DNA of 64,000 nt. It comes from Cyclobacteriaceae bacterium (lineage in GTDB: Bacteria; Bacteroidota; Bacteroidia; Cytophagales; Cyclobacteriaceae). Positions 1,067-62,580 of the stretch are shown one piece after another. Positions within the stretch are counted from its first letter, which is position 1. Each line of letters opens with the position of its first letter. The stretch lies in contig JAGQYM010000012.1 in NCBI GenBank assembly GCA_020436085.1, positions 31,828-95,827 on the forward strand, in the 5' to 3' direction. The notes beneath the pieces were generated by a model, which saw only the letters and a list, made by a program, of their open reading frames with translations, was not told the DNA's origin and made no database searches. A program made the position numbers and the translations under genes.

Positions 1067-1789
1067 TCATCTGAGCTTGGGTTTGGTGAAACTTAACTCC
1101 TTAACCTGGCCGAACTCTGCGCTGCCGGGGCCATAGAGTACGCGGACGTAGCTCTTTACCCTGTTCGCATTGTTCACCAGCGATACCGCATCCTTGTACA
1201 ACACCTTGTCGCGATGCTGGATGGTGACAGTGCGGGCCAGGCGGGCCTTGGACACCTCATCATTCTTCGTCTTCAACAAAGCTGCCTTCACGGCCAGTTG
1301 CTCCGGCTTCAGCTCCTCCTCGTTGGTCACGTAGCCGGGCAGGTTCGTCACCATGTTGACCAGTTGCGCAAAGTGGTCGGCAATGGCGGTGAAGCTTTGC
1401 TGCGTACGGCTGCGAGCAACTACCGGCTGCTGATCGGCCTCCGTAGAGGGCACGGCCTGGCGTTGGCTCTTGGTACGTCCTGAGATAATTCTCAAGTGGA
1501 AGCGTGCATCGTCAAGGGTGGCCTCGCTCATTGCCAACGCCTTTAAGGTGAAGACAATCTTTGAAGCCAGCGGCTTTACGTCTGCAAACGCATTCTCCCT
1601 GTCGTTAACCAGGGCGTAGTAAGCGTTCGTTTTAAGTGAAACATCTTGCAATGAACTTTGTGCTTCTTTAAGCAAAGCTCTCATCGCTTTAAGCTGGAGG
1701 GTCTGGCGACCGGGGTTATACTTACCTCCGAACCCGGTGCAGATGTCTACTAACCTGGAGTAGCGCATCGCAGTTTTTGCACTAGACAT
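1067..1789 (-). CDS. Unknown-function family protein, about 240 residues
   Basis: The frame is open further upstream to a GTG at 1855, but the ATG at 1787-1789 (MSSAKTAMRYSRLVD) is preferred because the extra N-terminal residues have no organised character. The product has no signal peptide or membrane segment and looks largely helical. It is rich in Ala, Leu and Lys and carries a C-terminal block (VKSYVRVLYGPGSAEFGQV, then a short LSFTK end) shared with the remnant encoded at 53845-54054. I know similar C-termini from other Bacteroidota hypothetical proteins but no function. The gene is monocistronic: terminator at its 3' end, and upstream an AT-rich leader followed by the 22-bp repeat array at 1919-2314. 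The array may therefore be its control region, which is inference only. Confidence 0.7.
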   Translation of the reverse strand: MSSAKTAMRYSRLVDICTGFGGKYNPGRQTLQLKAMRALLKEAQSSLQDVSLKTNAYYALVNDRENAFADVKPLASKIVFTLKALAMSEATLDDARFHLRIISGRTKSQRQAVPSTEADQQPVVARSRTQQSFTAIADHFAQLVNMVTNLPGYVTNEEELKPEQLAVKAALLKTKNDEVSKARLARTVTIQHRDKVLYKDAVSLVNNANRVKSYVRVLYGPGSAEFGQVKELSFTKPKLR

Positions 1790-1918: not shown

Positions 1919-2314
1919 GGGCTGTCACTCCGGTTAGTCTGGCCTGTTACTTGGGTTCATCCGGCATCCAACTCCTGTTGCTGTGGCATGCTGGTCCAGA
2001 TACTGCGGCATATTACTCCACTCCCTCCGGCATGCTCCCCTACTTACCCCGGCATGCTCCTCTACTCCTTCCGGCAGACTGGTACACTCTTCCCGGCATG
2101 TTGTCCTACAATCTCGAGCAGGTTCCTCCACTGCCTACGGCATGTTACTACAGTCTCTCCGGCATGTTCCTCTGCTTTGTAAGGTCTATTGGTCTACTCA
2201 GTCCGGTATATCACTCCACATTGTCCGGCATGTCGCTACACTTCCTCCGGCATATAGGTCCACTTTGTCCGGCAGGGTCCTGGAGTTTGTCCGGCAGGTT
2301 CTACCATTTGCTAA
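1919..2314. repeat. 22-bp periodic tandem array, about 18 degenerate units with no indels
   Basis: Eighteen consecutive units start with GG (one AG) at 1919, 1941, 1963, 1985, 2007 and so on every 22 bases up to 2293, with no insertion or deletion. The consensus is GGCATGTTNCTCCACT followed by a looser six bases ending in TCC. Individual units are quite diverged but always keep the register. Four units (1985, 2073, 2183, 2249) carry a GGT variant in the middle. The array lies between the terminator of the M14 peptidase gene and the AT-rich leader of the unknown-function gene at 1067-1789. Twenty-two bp is about two helical turns, so every unit would face the same side of the DNA. It resembles plasmid iterons in unit size, but no replication gene is near. 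Its function is unknown. Confidence 0.9.
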
Positions 2315-2348
2315 AAAAGGAAAGGCTTCCTTGCGGAAGCCCTTCCTT
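2313..2348 (-). terminator. Strong intrinsic terminator of the M14 peptidase gene
   Basis: On the minus strand a 14-bp stem (AAGGAAGGGCTTCC with GGAAGCCTTTCCTT, one G-U pair) closes a GCAA tetraloop and is followed by TTTTTT. It begins 22 bases after the stop codon at 2371. It separates peptidase transcription from the 22-bp repeat array that follows. Confidence 0.9.
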
Positions 2349-2370: not shown

Positions 2371-5121
2371 CTAATTTCCTAAGTGATCCCAATTGATCAG
2401 GATATTCCACACCAGTGGCGCATCATGGTGGTTCAAATATCGGTGGAGCGGATCAAAAGTAAAAGCAATTACCCTACCTTGTCCTTGCGGAACGTTGAAA
2501 ATTCCTCCATGCCCTATAATGGTCTGCTCATTTCGCACCATTCCAGACAAAACATACGGGGGATCCTTCTTTTCATCCGCCTTTTTGGTGGACGCCTTAT
2601 GATCCGGCATACCCATAATCGGACCCAAATAGGGTTCTTCGTCTTTCAAAGGCTTGGTACCATACTGTAGCAGCATCATGTCGCGGTTGTATTTGTCCAA
2701 CTGGTACAGCGGCCCATTGCCCCTGAACACATGGAAAACCTCAGGATAACCATAGAGCACGGGGTTTCCGGGCTTACGGGCCTTCACCCGCACAAACGAA
2801 CCGGGGTGAAACAAGCCTTGTGCATTGTAGCCTTCCAATTCCCTGGCAATACCCGTCTCGGCCACCATTCGGGTGGAGTTGTCCAGTGTCACCAGCACCC
2901 CGCCATTATCCACAAACAGTTTTAACTGGTTCAGGCCATCAAGACCTGGTCCACCGGTCATGTCATTGGTAGCGTCAGGTGTGCCATGGGCAGGATACTC
3001 GGCCGTTTTCGTGAACGGCATCGGTCCCCACTTGGCATCTACCCCATGAATGAAGTCGGCAGCCTCTCCTCTCATGCGCGGCACCAATATCACATCAAAC
3101 TTCTTGCGCAGGTCTCCCGCTTTCAAGTCATCCTTGTCAATAGAGGTATAAGGAATCCCGCGTTGCTCGAAGGTATAGCGCGACCACCCTTCGTCTTGCG
3201 TGCTGAACCAGCTGTGGTAAATGGCTACGCGTGGCAACGTCACATCGTGTTGCTTTCCTCCGGGTGCGGAAGCGGCTGCCTTCAAGTCCAATCCAAATTC
3301 TTTGGCAATGTGATCCGCTTGTGCTTTGGTGACGTCACGGAACACCACGGCTCCAGCTTTCAACGTGTCGCTGCCCACCACTTGTTGTTCATCCAACACA
3401 GACACACGCGCCTTCTTGTTTTGGCCTTTCACCCAATAGAGCGCTGGCAATACCGTGTTCTGTGCCTTGTAGTTCAGGATGTAATTGCCTGCACTTCCCT
3501 CAATAGTACCGGAGTACTTCACATCAGCAGTTACCAGGGTAAGGTCACTGAGGTTGTACTTCACGCTGTCCTCCGCTTTCACCTCCACGCCATAGTTCAA
3601 GCCAAGTGTCCACGCAATATCATCGTAAGGTGGAAACTTTGCTTCCTTGGGATAATTCTGATTGGTAAGCATCGTTACGGCTAGGTCGCGGTACGGCTGA
3701 TCGAGCAGGATCACATAGTCTCCTTCTTTTGATTTGTTGATCTCAAGTCCTTGCACGCGCAATTGGTTGACCATGTATGCGGCCATGGCGGGATCGTTTT
3801 GCTTTTTGGGAATAACGAACGCGCGTATCTTGTCTTCTTTACCGCGCTTGATGTTGTTCACTCCTTTCTGGTAGAAGTTGCGCAGGATCAGATTCTTATT
3901 ATCGGCAGTATACGTTAGCGATGCCAATACGCCTGCCTCCATGTAGTTGGTGTTGTTGCGCAGCGACCAGTTCACCAATTGTGTTGGTGGCGCAGGTCGG
4001 TACCACTCGCGACTGGTAGCGGGGTCGCCTGCATATTTTTGTTTGGAGAGATCACGCAGGTAGGTGTTGGCGCCTGCGTTACCAAATGTTTCATAGAAGC
4101 GACCGATGCTGTTGTGGTTGTTGGCAACCCACATCGCGTAGCCCGGCCACCATCCGTCAAAGAACGCCCACGTAAATGCACCGGGCATGCCTTGCGAAGC
4201 AAGGGTAGTGATGTCGTGGTTGGCCATGATCTGCCACTCACCAATGGCGATCGGATCCATGTGATCATTGTAGGGCCCAGTACCTGTACTGATATATAAT
4301 AGTGGCACTGATTCATGAAGATCTAGCATCACAGAAGGGTGCCACTCGTAGTACACCTTGAAGATGGCCTTCGTCAGCTCTGCTGATACTTGAATGCCGT
4401 CACGGTTGTTGTCGTGGAAAATGTACTTGCCCCAGTAGGGAGTGGAACGGGGAAATCCGTCATCAAATTCTTTTCTTGCTTTGCTGTATCGATAGTACCA
4501 ATCGACCTGCTTATCGCGACCATCTGGCTCGGAGGCCGGGTTGATCAGTACGATTACGTTGTCGCGAATATTTTTGATGTCAGCAGTCTGGCTTGTCGCC
4601 AATCTATATGCCAGCTCCATGAGCATCTCCGGTGAGCCCATCTCGGTTGAGTGTAGTCCACCGTTGAGATAGAAGATGGGCTTGCTGTCGGTGATGATCT
4701 TGTCTGCTTCATCACTGCCGACTTTGCGGGGATCGGAAAGTTTTGAAAGTTGACCTTTATAATGGTCGATTCTTTTCATGGACTCGTCATTGCCGATGAT
4801 GACGAGGTTGATGGCTCGACCTTCTTCGGTAGTACCTACGCGTTGTACAGAAACAAAGGGTGATGCTTTCGCCAGGGCTTCATAGTAGCCATAGATTTCG
4901 CTGGTACGGTGCATGGTGCCGGGTGTGCCTATGATTTGTCCGAAGTGCTTGCGGGGCGAGGGAACGTTTGGATCGTCTACGAGGTTGAGTACGGAAGCAG
5001 GCAGGAAGCGTGGGTCGGTTGTATATTCCTGGATTTTCTTGTTGTACTCATCATCGATATTCTGGGCACAGAGGGTGCCTGCGGCCAGGATGAGGGTAAG
5101 GAGTGTAAATATTCTCTGCAT
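2371..5121 (-). CDS. Secreted M14-family zinc carboxypeptidase
   Basis: The 916-residue product starts with a signal peptide (MQRIFTLLTLILAAGTLCAQ). The M14 catalytic domain spans about residues 60-400. Its zinc ligands are visible in GGLHSTEMG (H157, E160) and LDLHES (H269), with the substrate-binding NPASEPDGRD motif near 195 and the likely catalytic glutamate E344 in RFYETFGN. The remaining C-terminal 450 residues fit the accessory region of large Bacteroidota M14 peptidases, probably including a class I glutamine amidotransferase-like fold (residues ~630-800), which is inference. The enzyme would act in the periplasm or outside the cell on peptides. It is a single gene, ended by the terminator at 2313-2348. 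A second exopeptidase-type gene (M28) lies 940 bases upstream, suggesting a peptide-degrading neighbourhood. Confidence 0.9.
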   Translation of the reverse strand: MQRIFTLLTLILAAGTLCAQNIDDEYNKKIQEYTTDPRFLPASVLNLVDDPNVPSPRKHFGQIIGTPGTMHRTSEIYGYYEALAKASPFVSVQRVGTTEEGRAINLVIIGNDESMKRIDHYKGQLSKLSDPRKVGSDEADKIITDSKPIFYLNGGLHSTEMGSPEMLMELAYRLATSQTADIKNIRDNVIVLINPASEPDGRDKQVDWYYRYSKARKEFDDGFPRSTPYWGKYIFHDNNRDGIQVSAELTKAIFKVYYEWHPSVMLDLHESVPLLYISTGTGPYNDHMDPIAIGEWQIMANHDITTLASQGMPGAFTWAFFDGWWPGYAMWVANNHNSIGRFYETFGNAGANTYLRDLSKQKYAGDPATSREWYRPAPPTQLVNWSLRNNTNYMEAGVLASLTYTADNKNLILRNFYQKGVNNIKRGKEDKIRAFVIPKKQNDPAMAAYMVNQLRVQGLEINKSKEGDYVILLDQPYRDLAVTMLTNQNYPKEAKFPPYDDIAWTLGLNYGVEVKAEDSVKYNLSDLTLVTADVKYSGTIEGSAGNYILNYKAQNTVLPALYWVKGQNKKARVSVLDEQQVVGSDTLKAGAVVFRDVTKAQADHIAKEFGLDLKAAASAPGGKQHDVTLPRVAIYHSWFSTQDEGWSRYTFEQRGIPYTSIDKDDLKAGDLRKKFDVILVPRMRGEAADFIHGVDAKWGPMPFTKTAEYPAHGTPDATNDMTGGPGLDGLNQLKLFVDNGGVLVTLDNSTRMVAETGIARELEGYNAQGLFHPGSFVRVKARKPGNPVLYGYPEVFHVFRGNGPLYQLDKYNRDMMLLQYGTKPLKDEEPYLGPIMGMPDHKASTKKADEKKDPPYVLSGMVRNEQTIIGHGGIFNVPQGQGRVIAFTFDPLHRYLNHHDAPLVWNILINWDHLGN

Positions 5122-5226
5122 AATTCTTCAAGTTTTTGCGGAGCGAATATAAGGAGGGGCGCGAAACGGTCTGACTTTAGACTGATAAGCGGTTAAGGGA
5201 GGGGTTGGTTTGGAAAGAGGACTCAT

Positions 5227-5397
5227 GAGCACGGAGCTAAGTTCCCGCTAGAGAAGGAGGTTGGGTAATGATTATGGAGCACGGAAGTAACTTCCGCGCT
5301 AGAGGAGAGGAAAGAGGACTGATAGAGCACGGAACTAAGTTCCGCGCTAAAGGGGAGTTAGAAAAATTTAGCTTGGCGCGGAAGTTACTTCCGTGCC
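5227..5397. repeat. REP-like palindromes a-d, downstream side of the RAYT gene
   Basis: Four copies of a short palindromic element lie at 5227-5249, 5277-5300, 5325-5348 and, inverted, 5375-5397. The general form is GAGCACGG-AA-S-TA-A-S-TTCCGCGCT. Two flavours occur, with cores CGGAACTAAGTTCCG (first, which is slightly decayed, and third) and CGGAAGTAACTTCCG (second and fourth). The stem base changes on both sides, so pairing is kept. The last copy ends two bases before the RAYT stop codon at 5399. Confidence 0.9.
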
Positions 5398-5398
5398 C

Positions 5399-5950
5399 TC
5401 ACTCCATAAACTCAATATTCAAAAGTCCTTCGCCTGTTCCGTGATAATCCCTCGCACTACTGTAAACATACTCCTCTTCTTTTTCAACAATACCCGCTTT
5501 AACAGGATTCTGATGAATATAGTCCAACTTCTGCTCCATCATTTCATTTGTATTCAACTCAATAGGGTGATACTGATTCTGCCAAAATTTATACTTACGA
5601 TGTTTATTGCTACTATCAGCTGCTTTTGAAAACACTCCGAGCATCCAATCTTTCCTGCTATCCCCACTATTTTCAATCAATCGGCAGATGGTAACCGATG
5701 AGTATTTCTTGAAATCCCTAACTATATCCTGAACATCGTAAGAACCGTTTCGTCCGATAATCATGTGAATATGGTTACTCATGATACACCAGCCATAGAT
5801 TAAAAGCCCTTTGTTCTGCTGACAGTATCTGATGCTTTCTAGGAATGCATCTCTGTACACATGCTTGGTGAACACCTCAATCCAACCGATAACAGCGAAG
5901 GTTATGAAATGTAATCTCTCTTGATCCCGAATCTTGTATTTCTCGCTCAC
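5399..5950 (-). CDS. REP-associated tyrosine transposase (RAYT, Y1/HUH family)
   Basis: The 183-residue product is a typical single-domain Y1 transposase of the IS200-like/RAYT group. The HUH metal-binding motif is in MSNHIHMII (H60, H62) and the catalytic tyrosine is Y144 in LDYIHQNPVKAGIV, with the conserved FWQNQYHPIEL stretch just before it. All key residues are intact. RAYTs cut and join single-stranded REP hairpins and are usually domesticated rather than freely mobile. Here the gene is flanked on both sides by six copies of its likely substrate palindrome (four at 5227-5397, two at 5973-6040), so the whole stretch 5227-6040 behaves like a 'REPtron'. It sits between two unrelated secreted peptidase genes. 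Confidence 0.92.
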   Translation of the reverse strand: MSEKYKIRDQERLHFITFAVIGWIEVFTKHVYRDAFLESIRYCQQNKGLLIYGWCIMSNHIHMIIGRNGSYDVQDIVRDFKKYSSVTICRLIENSGDSRKDWMLGVFSKAADSSNKHRKYKFWQNQYHPIELNTNEMMEQKLDYIHQNPVKAGIVEKEEEYVYSSARDYHGTGEGLLNIEFME

Positions 5951-52964: not shown

Positions 52965-53444
52965 ATGAAAACAATGATGATTACGCCTGAGGGCATGGAG
53001 AAGTTGAAAGCAGAGTTGGATCACCTATGGCGTGTGGAACGACCGGAGACAACGCAAAAAGTGTCGTGGGCTGCCAGCCTCGGTGACCGCTCGGAAAATG
53101 CAGACTACCACTACAATAAAAAACGCCTTCGCGAGATTGACAAGCGTATCCTCTACCTTCGCAAGTGCATAGACAACCTTAAGGTGGTGAACTACTCTCC
53201 TTTCCAGGAAGGCAAGGTGATGTTTGGCGCGTGGGTGGAAATAGAAAATAAGCAGAAGAAGCTGAAGAAACGACTCCGTATTGTCGGTGGTGAAGAACTC
53301 ATCGGTGCCAAAGATTATATCTCGATGGACTCCCCCATGGCACATGCCCTACTCAACAAGGAGGTGGGTGAAGAGGCGATTGTGAGGACTACGATAGGTG
53401 AGTTTGTGTGGAAGATTAATAAGATTGAGTATGAGAAGAAGTAG
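52965..53444 (+). CDS. greB: Transcription elongation factor GreB-type
   Basis: The 159-residue product has the Gre coiled-coil (about 8-75) with the acidic tip LGDRSENADYHYNKKRLREI (D41, E44) that inserts into the RNA polymerase channel and stimulates cleavage of backtracked RNA, and the C-terminal FKBP-like domain (about 80-155). 'ENADYHYNKKRLREIDKRI' is more GreB-like than GreA-like, and the two-residue YH insert is typical. It is a single gene with its own candidate -7 box, and its TAG stop codon is the first unit of a heptamer array. Confidence 0.9.
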   Translation: MKTMMITPEGMEKLKAELDHLWRVERPETTQKVSWAASLGDRSENADYHYNKKRLREIDKRILYLRKCIDNLKVVNYSPFQEGKVMFGAWVEIENKQKKLKKRLRIVGGEELIGAKDYISMDSPMAHALLNKEVGEEAIVRTTIGEFVWKINKIEYEKK

Positions 53445-53490
53445 TCGGTAGTCTTTAGTCTTTAGTCTTTAGTATTGAGTATTGAGTATC
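53442..53490. repeat. Heptamer array (TAGTCTT type) beginning with the greB stop codon
   Basis: Seven successive 7-base units: TAGTCGG, TAGTCTT three times, TAGTATT, GAGTATT, GAGTATC. The first unit includes the greB stop codon. Because 7 leaves remainder 1 modulo 3, successive TAG units place stops in all three plus frames, and CTAAAG on the other strand does the same with TAA. A related array occurs at 62514-62580. Confidence 0.85.
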
Positions 53491-53844: not shown

Positions 53845-54054
53845 TCATTTGATTTTTAGTTTGGTGAAACTTACGTCCTTAAGGCTGGTGGCCTGTGCGC
53901 TGCGTGTGCCGAAAGTAGCTTTGACATATCGCTTGGCAGCTCTGGCATTGTCGACTATGCCGTGTTTGCTGCGATAGATAAGCTGGTTTCGCTGTTGCCG
54001 CGCCATGATCAAGTCAACCTTCGCATCGTGCACTTCTTTGTTGAGACGGTGCAT
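53845..54054 (-). pseudogene. 3' remnant of a paralogue of the unknown-function gene at 1067-1789
   Basis: The 69 residues (LNKEVHDAKVDLIMARQQRN, then ARAAKRYVKATFG and LKDVSFTKLKIK) align without gaps to the C-terminal part of the protein encoded at 1067-1789 (KNDEVSKARLARTVTIQHRD, then ANRVKSYVRVLYG and VKELSFTKPKLR). The N-terminal two thirds are missing. The upstream frame is closed by a stop and DNA from a truncated hsdM is joined there. The ATG at 54052-54054 is probably fortuitous. Confidence 0.75.
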
Positions 54055-54757
54055 TCTGTGCCAACTTGAAGAAGTTGCTTGCCTTGGCCACGTAGATCAG
54101 CTGACCGAACCGTCTGGTTGTTCGCGCCAGTACGGTGCTTACTTGTTGCGGTGTATAGAACTCACCAGCTTTTTTGCCGGCACCGCTGGCAAACTTACCG
54201 ATGAGGTATTCGTAGGCATCGCCCAGCACATCGTTCTCGGTGTTGTGTAAATCGAAATCAACATCGTTGAGTTGTGATAGCACACGCACGATGAGTTTAT
54301 TCTTATCGTCTTCGCTCTTACCTAACTTACTGCTACCGAGGTCAAGGTCTTCGAAGAGGTTGATGAATTCTTCTTCGCTCTCGGTGCCCATGGTACTTTG
54401 CTCAATGTGATTGAGAATTTTAGCGAGGTCATCGAGTATAAATTTTTCTTTGCCTTCGGCATTGCCGCGTTCGGCAAGTTCGCTGAAGAGTTCATCGGGT
54501 TCGAGAAAATAACCCAGAGCATCGAGGGCATCGGCCTTTACCTCTTTCAAGTACAGCCTTCTTTGTTTGTGTTTCTTTAGGTCAGCGTAGGTGAGCTTGT
54601 CGGGTTTGAGGATCTTATTGGCATGATCCTCCATCTTCTCACTGAGGTACTTATAGAAAATAAAACCAAGGATGTAGTCTCTGAAGTCATCCGCGCCCAT
54701 CTTACCCCGCAGGGTGTCGGCAATTCTCCAGAGTAGTTGTTCGAGTTGTTCAGGCAT
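54014..54757 (-). pseudogene. Truncated type I restriction-modification methyltransferase subunit (hsdM remnant)
   Basis: The frame starts MPEQLEQLLWRIADTLRGKM and matches the HsdM N-terminal domain (GADDFRDYILGFIFYKYLSE), the linker, and the start of the methylase domain up to KAGEFYTPQQVSTVLA (residues 197-211). It then leaves the family: the S-adenosylmethionine motif and the NPPY/F catalytic motif are absent, and a normal HsdM is over 480 residues. The last 35 residues overlap the remnant at 53845-54054 in another frame. The stretch RRFGQLIYVAK may derive from that family's middle part (compare HFAQLVNMVT in the intact copy). No hsdS or hsdR gene is present. It is most likely a dead fragment left by recombination. 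Confidence 0.85.
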
Positions 54758-56712: not shown

Positions 56713-56882
56713 AGATTTAAGTGTTACCTACTCTTCTTCGGATTTTCGGCTTTCTCCGACCAATCTGTATTCTTCAGTTGGCACATGTAAATAGATTTCA
56801 GTACTTGAAATATTCGACAATAAGTATTCAGACGCACAGTATTAGTTAGTAGGTGGAAATCCTACAAAGATCGAAGTGCTCG

Positions 56883-62513: not shown

Positions 62514-62580
62514 TAGTCCTTAGTTTTTAGTCTTTAGTTTTTAGTGTTTAGTGTTTAGTCCTTAGTTAGTCTTTAGTAAC
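62514..62580. repeat. Heptamer array (TAGTxTT type) overlapping the end of the RDD gene
   Basis: Units TAGTCCT, TAGTTTT, TAGTCTT, TAGTTTT, TAGTGTT, TAGTGTT, TAGTCCT, a truncated TAGT, TAGTCTT and TAGTAAC. On the minus strand the last codons and stop of the RDD protein gene (ACT-AAA-GAC-TAA) are made of the repeat. It is the same family as the array at 53442-53490 but in opposite orientation to its gene. Confidence 0.85.

Follow-up and report, generated by a model that had tools for sequence, protein, structure and literature searches.

Why should a bacterial chromosome keep eighteen short repeats in exact register while the sequence of the repeats wears away? The question is raised by an array in a 64,000-nucleotide stretch of Cyclobacteriaceae DNA, the window of this study, where the array lies beside a gene (1067-1789) that matched no family in Pfam, NCBIfam, PHROG or PADLOC. 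A first-pass annotation of the window had proposed that the spacing of the units, about two helical turns, is conserved, that the array belongs with this gene, and that it might be a landing strip for a polymerizing protein, an iteron-like element or a regulatory array.

The array and its surroundings

The array (Table 1) consists of 18 consecutive 22-mers without an indel, exactly as first described, and every unit starts with GG except for one AG at 2117. The unit caller returned 22 bp, 17.8 units and no indel, and the autocorrelation reached 0.52-0.61 at multiples of 22, which were among the top lags (mean 0.27 over lags 1-199). The units diverge around GGCATGTTNCTCCACTYTCTCC and are worn to about 60% identity, with an information content of 21.3 bits summed per unit; by eye, the most worn ones include units 1-3 and the last two. 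In a scan of the whole window at periods of 12-70, the array alone reached z>=6 (z 15.5, period 22). A CRISPR array was ruled out, the units being contiguous and spacer-free in the window and in 12 arrays that were printed for inspection.

Table 1. Features of the window, with strand and remarks
Feature	Position	Strand	Remarks
Array, 18 units of 22 bp	1919..2314	minus (gene-sense strand)	unit GGAGARAGTGGAGNAACATGCC
Array-associated protein gene	1067..1789	minus	240 aa, basic, internally duplicated, all-helical by model
Leader from array to start codon	1790..1918	minus	129 bp, A+T-rich; presumed promoter region
Terminator-like hairpin with T-run	2313..2348	minus	by eye; ends the upstream M14-peptidase gene; far module edge
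M14-peptidase gene, upstream	2371-5121	minus	Pfam PF00246
48-bp repeat	5212-5357		contains GGAACTAAGTTCC palindromes; with the next feature, a RAYT/REP-like system
REP-associated tyrosine transposase	5402-5950	minus	NF047646
7-bp microsatellites	53442-53489 and 62514-62577		TAGTCTT-like
Remnant of a family copy	53860..54063	minus	C-terminal 68 aa, without array
DUF805b RNA	56725-56759	minus	RF02914; single Rfam match, unrelated to the array

The ATG at 1789 is the most likely start codon of the gene, with the GTG at 1855 as the alternative, because the homology within its family begins at the former. The hairpin beyond the array had been described as a strong terminator that isolates the array; inspected by eye, it appears instead to terminate the minus-strand gene of the M14 peptidase.

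The genome has a second array built from this unit family, on a different contig (G000:C119:6881-7232), where 16 units follow one another at a fixed 22-bp spacing. The two 22-bp arrays each have ECF sigma genes nearby, a lead that was dropped because distance and side differ between them. A blastn search with the exact unit matched one of 58 genomes, namely the own genome, and gave no match in phages or plasmids, and the consensus pattern of the unit was absent from the viral contigs. A sequence-only model of three window units, searched in 196 genomes with strict filters and among the candidates scored, matched two, the own genome and one (G238) with a weak 36-base match; strong periodicity was not seen in 16 kb around the latter.

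A gene family accompanied by arrays

The window gene matches the profile of its family, which was built including it, with E 1.4e-90 over positions 2-240 of 240. The family is multicopy and patchy, with matches in 26 of the 62 genomes of the genus (up to 11 in one), 19/295 genomes of the taxonomic family, 38/395 of the class and 6/296 of the phylum, the own genome being included each time; the latter has eight matches, two of them partial. Sixteen named loci are from Cyclobacteriaceae, Flammeovirgaceae, Cytophagales or Bacteroidetes MAGs. At the sensitivity used, the protein had no match in viral contigs (pattern-based) or in phages and plasmids (tblastn with one member). The proteins are basic (pI 9.67 and net charge +11.5, both medians of 110 copies), the structure model, made from 17 sequences, is all-helical (pLDDT 87), and the profile is made up of two homologous halves (hhalign probability 97%, E 4.5e-11, 67 columns). 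Foldseek searches of the PDB and of viral models returned nothing at E<=0.001, and no known DNA-binding or recombinase fold was matched. One neighboring gene, which we take to be DUF4230-like, adjoins the family gene at 10 loci (L065, L067, L069, L070, L071, L072, L074, L100, L103 and L153) and is the sole neighbor common to as many; the next clusters comprise 6, 5 and 4 loci.

Near the gene, 21- or 22-bp units form a tandem array in 70 of the 84 copies of a first set and in 27 of the 28 copies of a second, more distant set, that is, in 97 of 112 family copies. The first set comprised 84 distinct copies, a subset of those matched, with matches below 150 profile positions excluded and up to 2.5 kb scanned per side; the second comprised 28 new loci from a class-wide search, with up to 1.5 kb per side. 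An array was accepted at z>=6, a called period of 21 or 22 and a distance of at most 900 bp from the gene. It should be noted that z>=6 and 900 bp became the cut-offs only once both sets had been inspected, that the prediction of a period of 21 or 22 preceded the scan of the distant set, and that the unit caller was offered periods of 20-23 alone; the best period of the scan was 21, 22, 42, 43, 44, 63 or 64 in 66/70. These counts support both the conserved spacing of about two helical turns and the assignment of the array to the gene at 1067. The comparison with related genomes that the first-pass annotation had proposed thus came out in its favor: the pair of gene and 21-/22-bp array recurs, although the exact unit was found, in the searches above, in the own genome alone, apart from the weak G238 match.

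In the controls, the opposite flanks of the 70 copies reached z>=6 in six cases (five at period 14, one at 44), and those of the 27 in six (periods 15, 25, 40, 42, 45 and 50), a seventh printing as 6.0 at period 33. The z value never exceeded 5.8 in 23 window chunks of 2.5 kb, and a further 400 kb of DNA, drawn from four genomes, contained three stretches with z>=6, at periods 36, 42 (z 6.4) and 21 (z 6.2), and thus two weak hits at 21/42.

The 15 failing copies are L033, L156, L108, L087, L107, L100, L044, L123, L159, L071, L105, L144, L110, L148 and L168. Among them, L033, L044, L071, L087 and L110 have a short flank on the expected side, L108 (z 5.6) and L123 (z 4.9) are near-misses at period 21, and L105 and L107, both in the own genome, were counted as misses with real-looking arrays of alternating 21/22 bp situated 1.7 and 1.3 kb upstream. 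Of the accepted calls, that at L030, downstream of the gene, is doubtful (best scan period 53, TRF repeat of 103 bp; period of 44 bp at z 6.7 in the upstream flank), and that at L111 consists of CRISPR-like repeats with 66-bp spacing, the same gene having a nearer 43-bp array (L052); the CRISPR-like array adjoins this family copy upstream of the gene. Some loci are non-independent, L165/L166 being nearly identical and L185/L186 and L187/L188 close pairs. A last small set was mixed, with 21-bp arrays at L232 and L233/L235 but not at its two loci from G1070, the one genome outside the class, where 16-bp repeats take their place.

Period, sequence and polarity of the units

The called period was 21 bp in 83 and 22 bp in 14 of the 97 arrays; higher-order repeats of 42, 43, 44 and 63 bp are present, and the 43-bp ones that were inspected alternate 21 and 22. 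The 94 arrays with at most four indels, L119, L106 and L111 with 8, 8 and 10 being excluded, contain 7,248 mismatches to consensus versus 32 indels, and of the 61 arrays whose mismatch exceeds 25%, 45 are indel-free, as counted by a caller that runs at a set period, penalizes indels and recovers 141/158 simulated interior indels. The sequence of the unit varies widely between loci at a constant period of 21-22 bases, which suggests that spacing is conserved more than sequence.

The similarity of arrays drops steadily with the identity of their proteins, from 0.467 at more than 80% identity to 0.325 at less than 30%. Of ten same-genome pairs with more than 75% protein identity, one (91%) retains its unit and four score 0.34-0.39, values that compare with about 0.33 for little-related arrays, in a score that also drops for diffuse arrays. 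These four close pairs with unlike arrays are hard to reconcile with sequence-specific recognition. Same-genome pairs exhibit neither clear repulsion nor clear attraction between their array sequences.

A shared motif, about AAnnTnGCAnYG in the gene sense, is weak (3.25 bits over 78 arrays; 20 draws each, with equal restarts, gave 2.74-2.90 when orientations were randomized and 2.23-2.45 when columns were shuffled), and its polarity is fixed relative to the gene. Dyad symmetry was rejected for the main family (4.68 and 4.71, versus 4.71 and 4.81 shuffled). A coding function of the repeats was likewise rejected, as there is no consistent frame: any of the six frames is open in 2/15 of the 22-bp arrays, and an open frame occurs in 51/86 of the 21-bp arrays, in the gene sense in 34 and antisense in 40. 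The folding energy of the putative RNA equals that of column-permuted arrays, with a mean z of 0.09 in the gene sense and 0.00 antisense (79 arrays; an earlier sample of 30 had given a mean z of -0.47, sd 1.16).

Placement of the arrays relative to genes and transcription signals

The array lies 3' of the gene in 56 of the 97 cases and 5' in 41, and its side tracks the clades of a 110-protein tree built by a quick method. As counted from the drawn tree, 36/38 called arrays are 5' in a clade of 48 rows and 54/58 are 3' in a clade of 62 rows; the tree implies six changes of array side, one of them via the doubtful L030, and seven of period. The gap from a 5' array to the matched gene start is 96-383 bp in 39/41, and 3' arrays start 3-176 bp past the matched gene end in 52/56. 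Gene-sense terminator-like sites are found between gene and 3' array in 14/52 cases and within 200 bp past the array in 1/56, and antisense ones in six cases between and four after. In the 5' clade, gene-sense terminator-like sites occur in at most 1/43 per region. Because arrays are found either 5' or 3', no single regulatory role fits all of them, and a regulatory array for the 1067 gene alone, one of the original proposals, is not supported when 56/97 arrays are 3' and a terminator-like site can intervene.

Promoters were scanned with the box TAnnTTTG. Outward boxes past the far end of the array were found at 13/56 three-prime arrays (4.2 expected) and 9/41 five-prime arrays (4.9 expected), gene-sense boxes between 5' array and gene in 0/41 (3.6 expected), and boxes before the gene in the 3' clade in 8/56 (5.8 expected). 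The far neighbor of 3' arrays is on the same strand in 27 and on the opposite strand in 23 cases, without a clear rule, so that the outward promoters may be the neighbors' own. In nine copies (L125-L133), two ACGANATNTCGT-like palindromes were seen by eye before the gene, about 21-22 bp apart and the farther one degenerate; perhaps they represent a two-unit operator. Repeats of 7 or 14 bp (TTAACGA-like) also occur upstream of several module copies, for example L129 and L130.

Module edges and orphan arrays

The nine copies in the genomes G339 and G349 are scattered, apart from two that share a locus. Of eight non-self matches to the module, six begin about 160 bp and two about 135 bp before the gene (query positions 1834-1838 and 1860), and the similarity stops somewhere from the final portion of the gene to the initial units of the array. 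The copies L125 and L130 occupy one locus, as their shared flanks indicate, yet their units are quite different. Past the array, a tail of 113-174 bp is 74-78% alike at L149, L150 and L152, three sites in G271, and at L158 in G034; elsewhere among the 22 loci compared, one of which has no post-array sequence, shared tails are confined to close or syntenic pairs or to short repeats.

Arrays also exist without a gene. The array on C119 is a gene-less counterpart of the window array, and a 21-bp array on C66 (G000:C66:64203-64529, L239) is the counterpart of the array of the paralogue on C22, with 15 good units and a cross identity of 0.72; these two arrays, of the window copy and the C22 paralogue, were the ones covered by the search. 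No family gene was found within 14 kb (C119) and 8 kb (C66) or among the matches listed on those contigs. Reading frames of the IS200/REP type were seen by eye near five loci, a widely recurring transposase was not found, and a comparison with two relatives lacking the family gave no match to an empty site.

Arrays upstream of DUF6261 genes

Of 36 loci of Pfam DUF6261 (PF19775), five were dropped for an absent or wrong reading frame (L203, L205, L215, L224 and L228). In the remaining 31, the upstream flank has a best period of 41 or 42 with z>=6 in 25 (12-70 scan; one prints as 6.0), and a narrower scan at 38-46 detected arrays in 26, in 25 of which 16-152 bp separate the end of the array window from the gene. 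Like the main family, these are Bacteroidia proteins of about 215-270 aa, in places several per genome, with an array just upstream whose 41/42 bp equal two 21-bp steps. Unlike it, they are neutral or acidic as a rule (median pI 7.3, range 4.7-9.1 in 30 proteins) and their arrays carry dyads (6.08 of 7 versus 5.26 shuffled). The window protein did not match the Pfam DUF6261 model, which gave one weak match (E 0.024) among 19 family members, and the two profiles aligned locally with an hhalign probability of 25% over 63 columns, global runs remaining below 2%; homology of the two families is therefore suggestive only. In the open-licence literature, DUF6261 was met in a single paper, whose title concerns daptomycin resistance.

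A proposed phased platform and its alternatives

The two-turn period, the deficit of indels, the polarity, the position of some 3' arrays past a terminator-like site, the basic protein and the linkage by descent together suggest that the array and the 1067-1789 gene form a two-part chromosomal module, in which a phased DNA platform would be coated by the neighboring protein, a reading in which we place a little more belief than doubt. The module would combine a small basic helical protein with a one-sided array, a weak oriented motif recurring every 21-22 bp, that is, every two turns of B-DNA. The protein would recognize the array in the form of DNA, with a single protomer on each unit and perhaps one of its two homologous halves on each helical turn; protomers would assemble cooperatively next to one another on one face, which would put strong selection on spacing and leave most bases of the unit free to drift. 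Once coated, the array could act as a nucleoprotein cluster, either controlling the module or tethering or marking DNA, and orphan arrays elsewhere in the genome could be bound in trans. We infer binding, cooperativity and stoichiometry, and a protein that would polymerize along one face of the DNA, for which the first-pass annotation saw the array as a landing strip, is the best candidate mechanism. The rapid turnover of array sequence suggests that phase matters more than sequence does.

Several other explanations have to be weighed. The array might be bound by another factor of the host and act in cis on the gene or its neighbor, as would fit the upstream position of the array in the clade of the window and before DUF6261 genes, the DUF6261 dyads, which dimeric repressors need, and the enrichment of outward TAnnTTTG boxes. 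Nevertheless, the 3' arrays of the larger clade, the position of 3' arrays beyond a gene-sense terminator-like site in 14/52 cases, the lack of a clear strand rule for the far neighbors, and a turnover of repeat sequence faster than expected for a shared host factor render this quite unlikely. A selfish or mobile nature of the module, with the array as an end part or recombination substrate and the protein as a recombination or spreading factor, is unlikely too. The multicopy and patchy family, the scattered G339/G349 copies with a common start, the tail common to L149, L150, L152 and L158 and the orphan arrays on C119 and C66 speak for it, and the shared leader and the tail of one group leave room for such a reading; the lack of a widely recurring transposase, the restriction of other tails to close or syntenic pairs or short repeats, and the absence, at the sensitivity used, of a recombinase fold match and of viral, phage and plasmid matches speak against it, and the empty-site comparison yielded nothing in its favor.

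That the array acts as RNA, its transcribed repeats being bound by the protein, would agree with the fixed polarity of the motif, and the scarcity of terminator-like sites in the 5' clade makes transcription of 5' arrays possible. However, gene-sense terminator-like sites precede 3' arrays far more often than they follow them, and the folding energies do not differ from those of permuted arrays, so this idea appears very unlikely. A neutral minisatellite beside the gene by chance is hardly credible: the higher-order units resemble the products of ordinary unequal exchange, but recurrence beside one gene family at a constant period and with widely differing sequence, the result for the distant set, the indel deficit and the low background in control DNA contradict it.

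The phased platform might also be seen more broadly, the main family and DUF6261 being two branches of Bacteroidota-wide DNA-organizing modules in which a duplicated helical protein reads chiefly helical phase. A mark every two turns would be recognized, while the sequence could turn over freely as long as period and polarity were kept. This extension is tentative and, on balance, doubtful; as DUF6261 proteins are as a rule not basic, charge-driven binding does not extend to them. In any case, an unannotated gene family and a Pfam domain gain a strong and testable genomic partner, the phased DNA array, and no description of this pairing was found in open-licence papers. If the proteins coat the arrays, they would constitute a new bacterial nucleoprotein system in which the selected trait is helical phase, and nature would provide a varied library of arrays for its study.

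Relation to known systems

Plasmid origins have iterons, direct repeats about 22 bp long that adjoin the gene of the protein that binds them; those of R6K measure 22 bp. The window array is similar in that its direct repeats of about 22 bp adjoin the gene of a putative binding protein, and an iteron-like element had indeed been suggested. However, the family has many paralogues per genome, its arrays are sometimes 3', and the window units have only about 60% identity; a replication-initiator domain was not found in the window or family protein by family matches or by fold matches at E<=0.001, nor was a replication-protein family, and a plain iteron origin is thus unsupported.

A precedent for the putative mode of binding is BldC, a 68-residue MerR-like protein that is described, in the part of the paper that concerns its sites, as binding directional direct repeats cooperatively and head to tail, at sites where two to four repeats follow at one-turn spacing, and as reading an A/T stretch and a C-G pair (PMC5859096). 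Directional direct repeats can therefore be bound head to tail; the arrays of the family share the directional direct repeats, but are much longer and have a two-turn spacing.

The published repeats found nearest to these arrays are those of Porphyromonas gingivalis, namely the intergenic 23-nt BrickBuilt repeats, the 41-nt 464/PgRS repeats and the 22-nt repeats mentioned with them (PMC4596501). According to the sections of that paper on repeat structure, BrickBuilt elements are MITE-like, belong to one species, and have a leader, a tail and inverted ends, with 0-11% mismatches and 0-6% indels. What might correspond to such edges in the module is a leader of about 135-160 bp common to G339/G349 and, among 22 loci, a tail common to one group of four. 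BrickBuilt and PgRS resemble the family arrays in being spacer-free tandem repeats of Bacteroidota that are diverged within the array and of uncertain role; in the same sections they are tied to no protein family, whereas the arrays described here accompany a gene family and vary greatly in sequence from locus to locus. Nevertheless, these arrays may bear on the 22-, 23- and 41-nt repeats of P. gingivalis.
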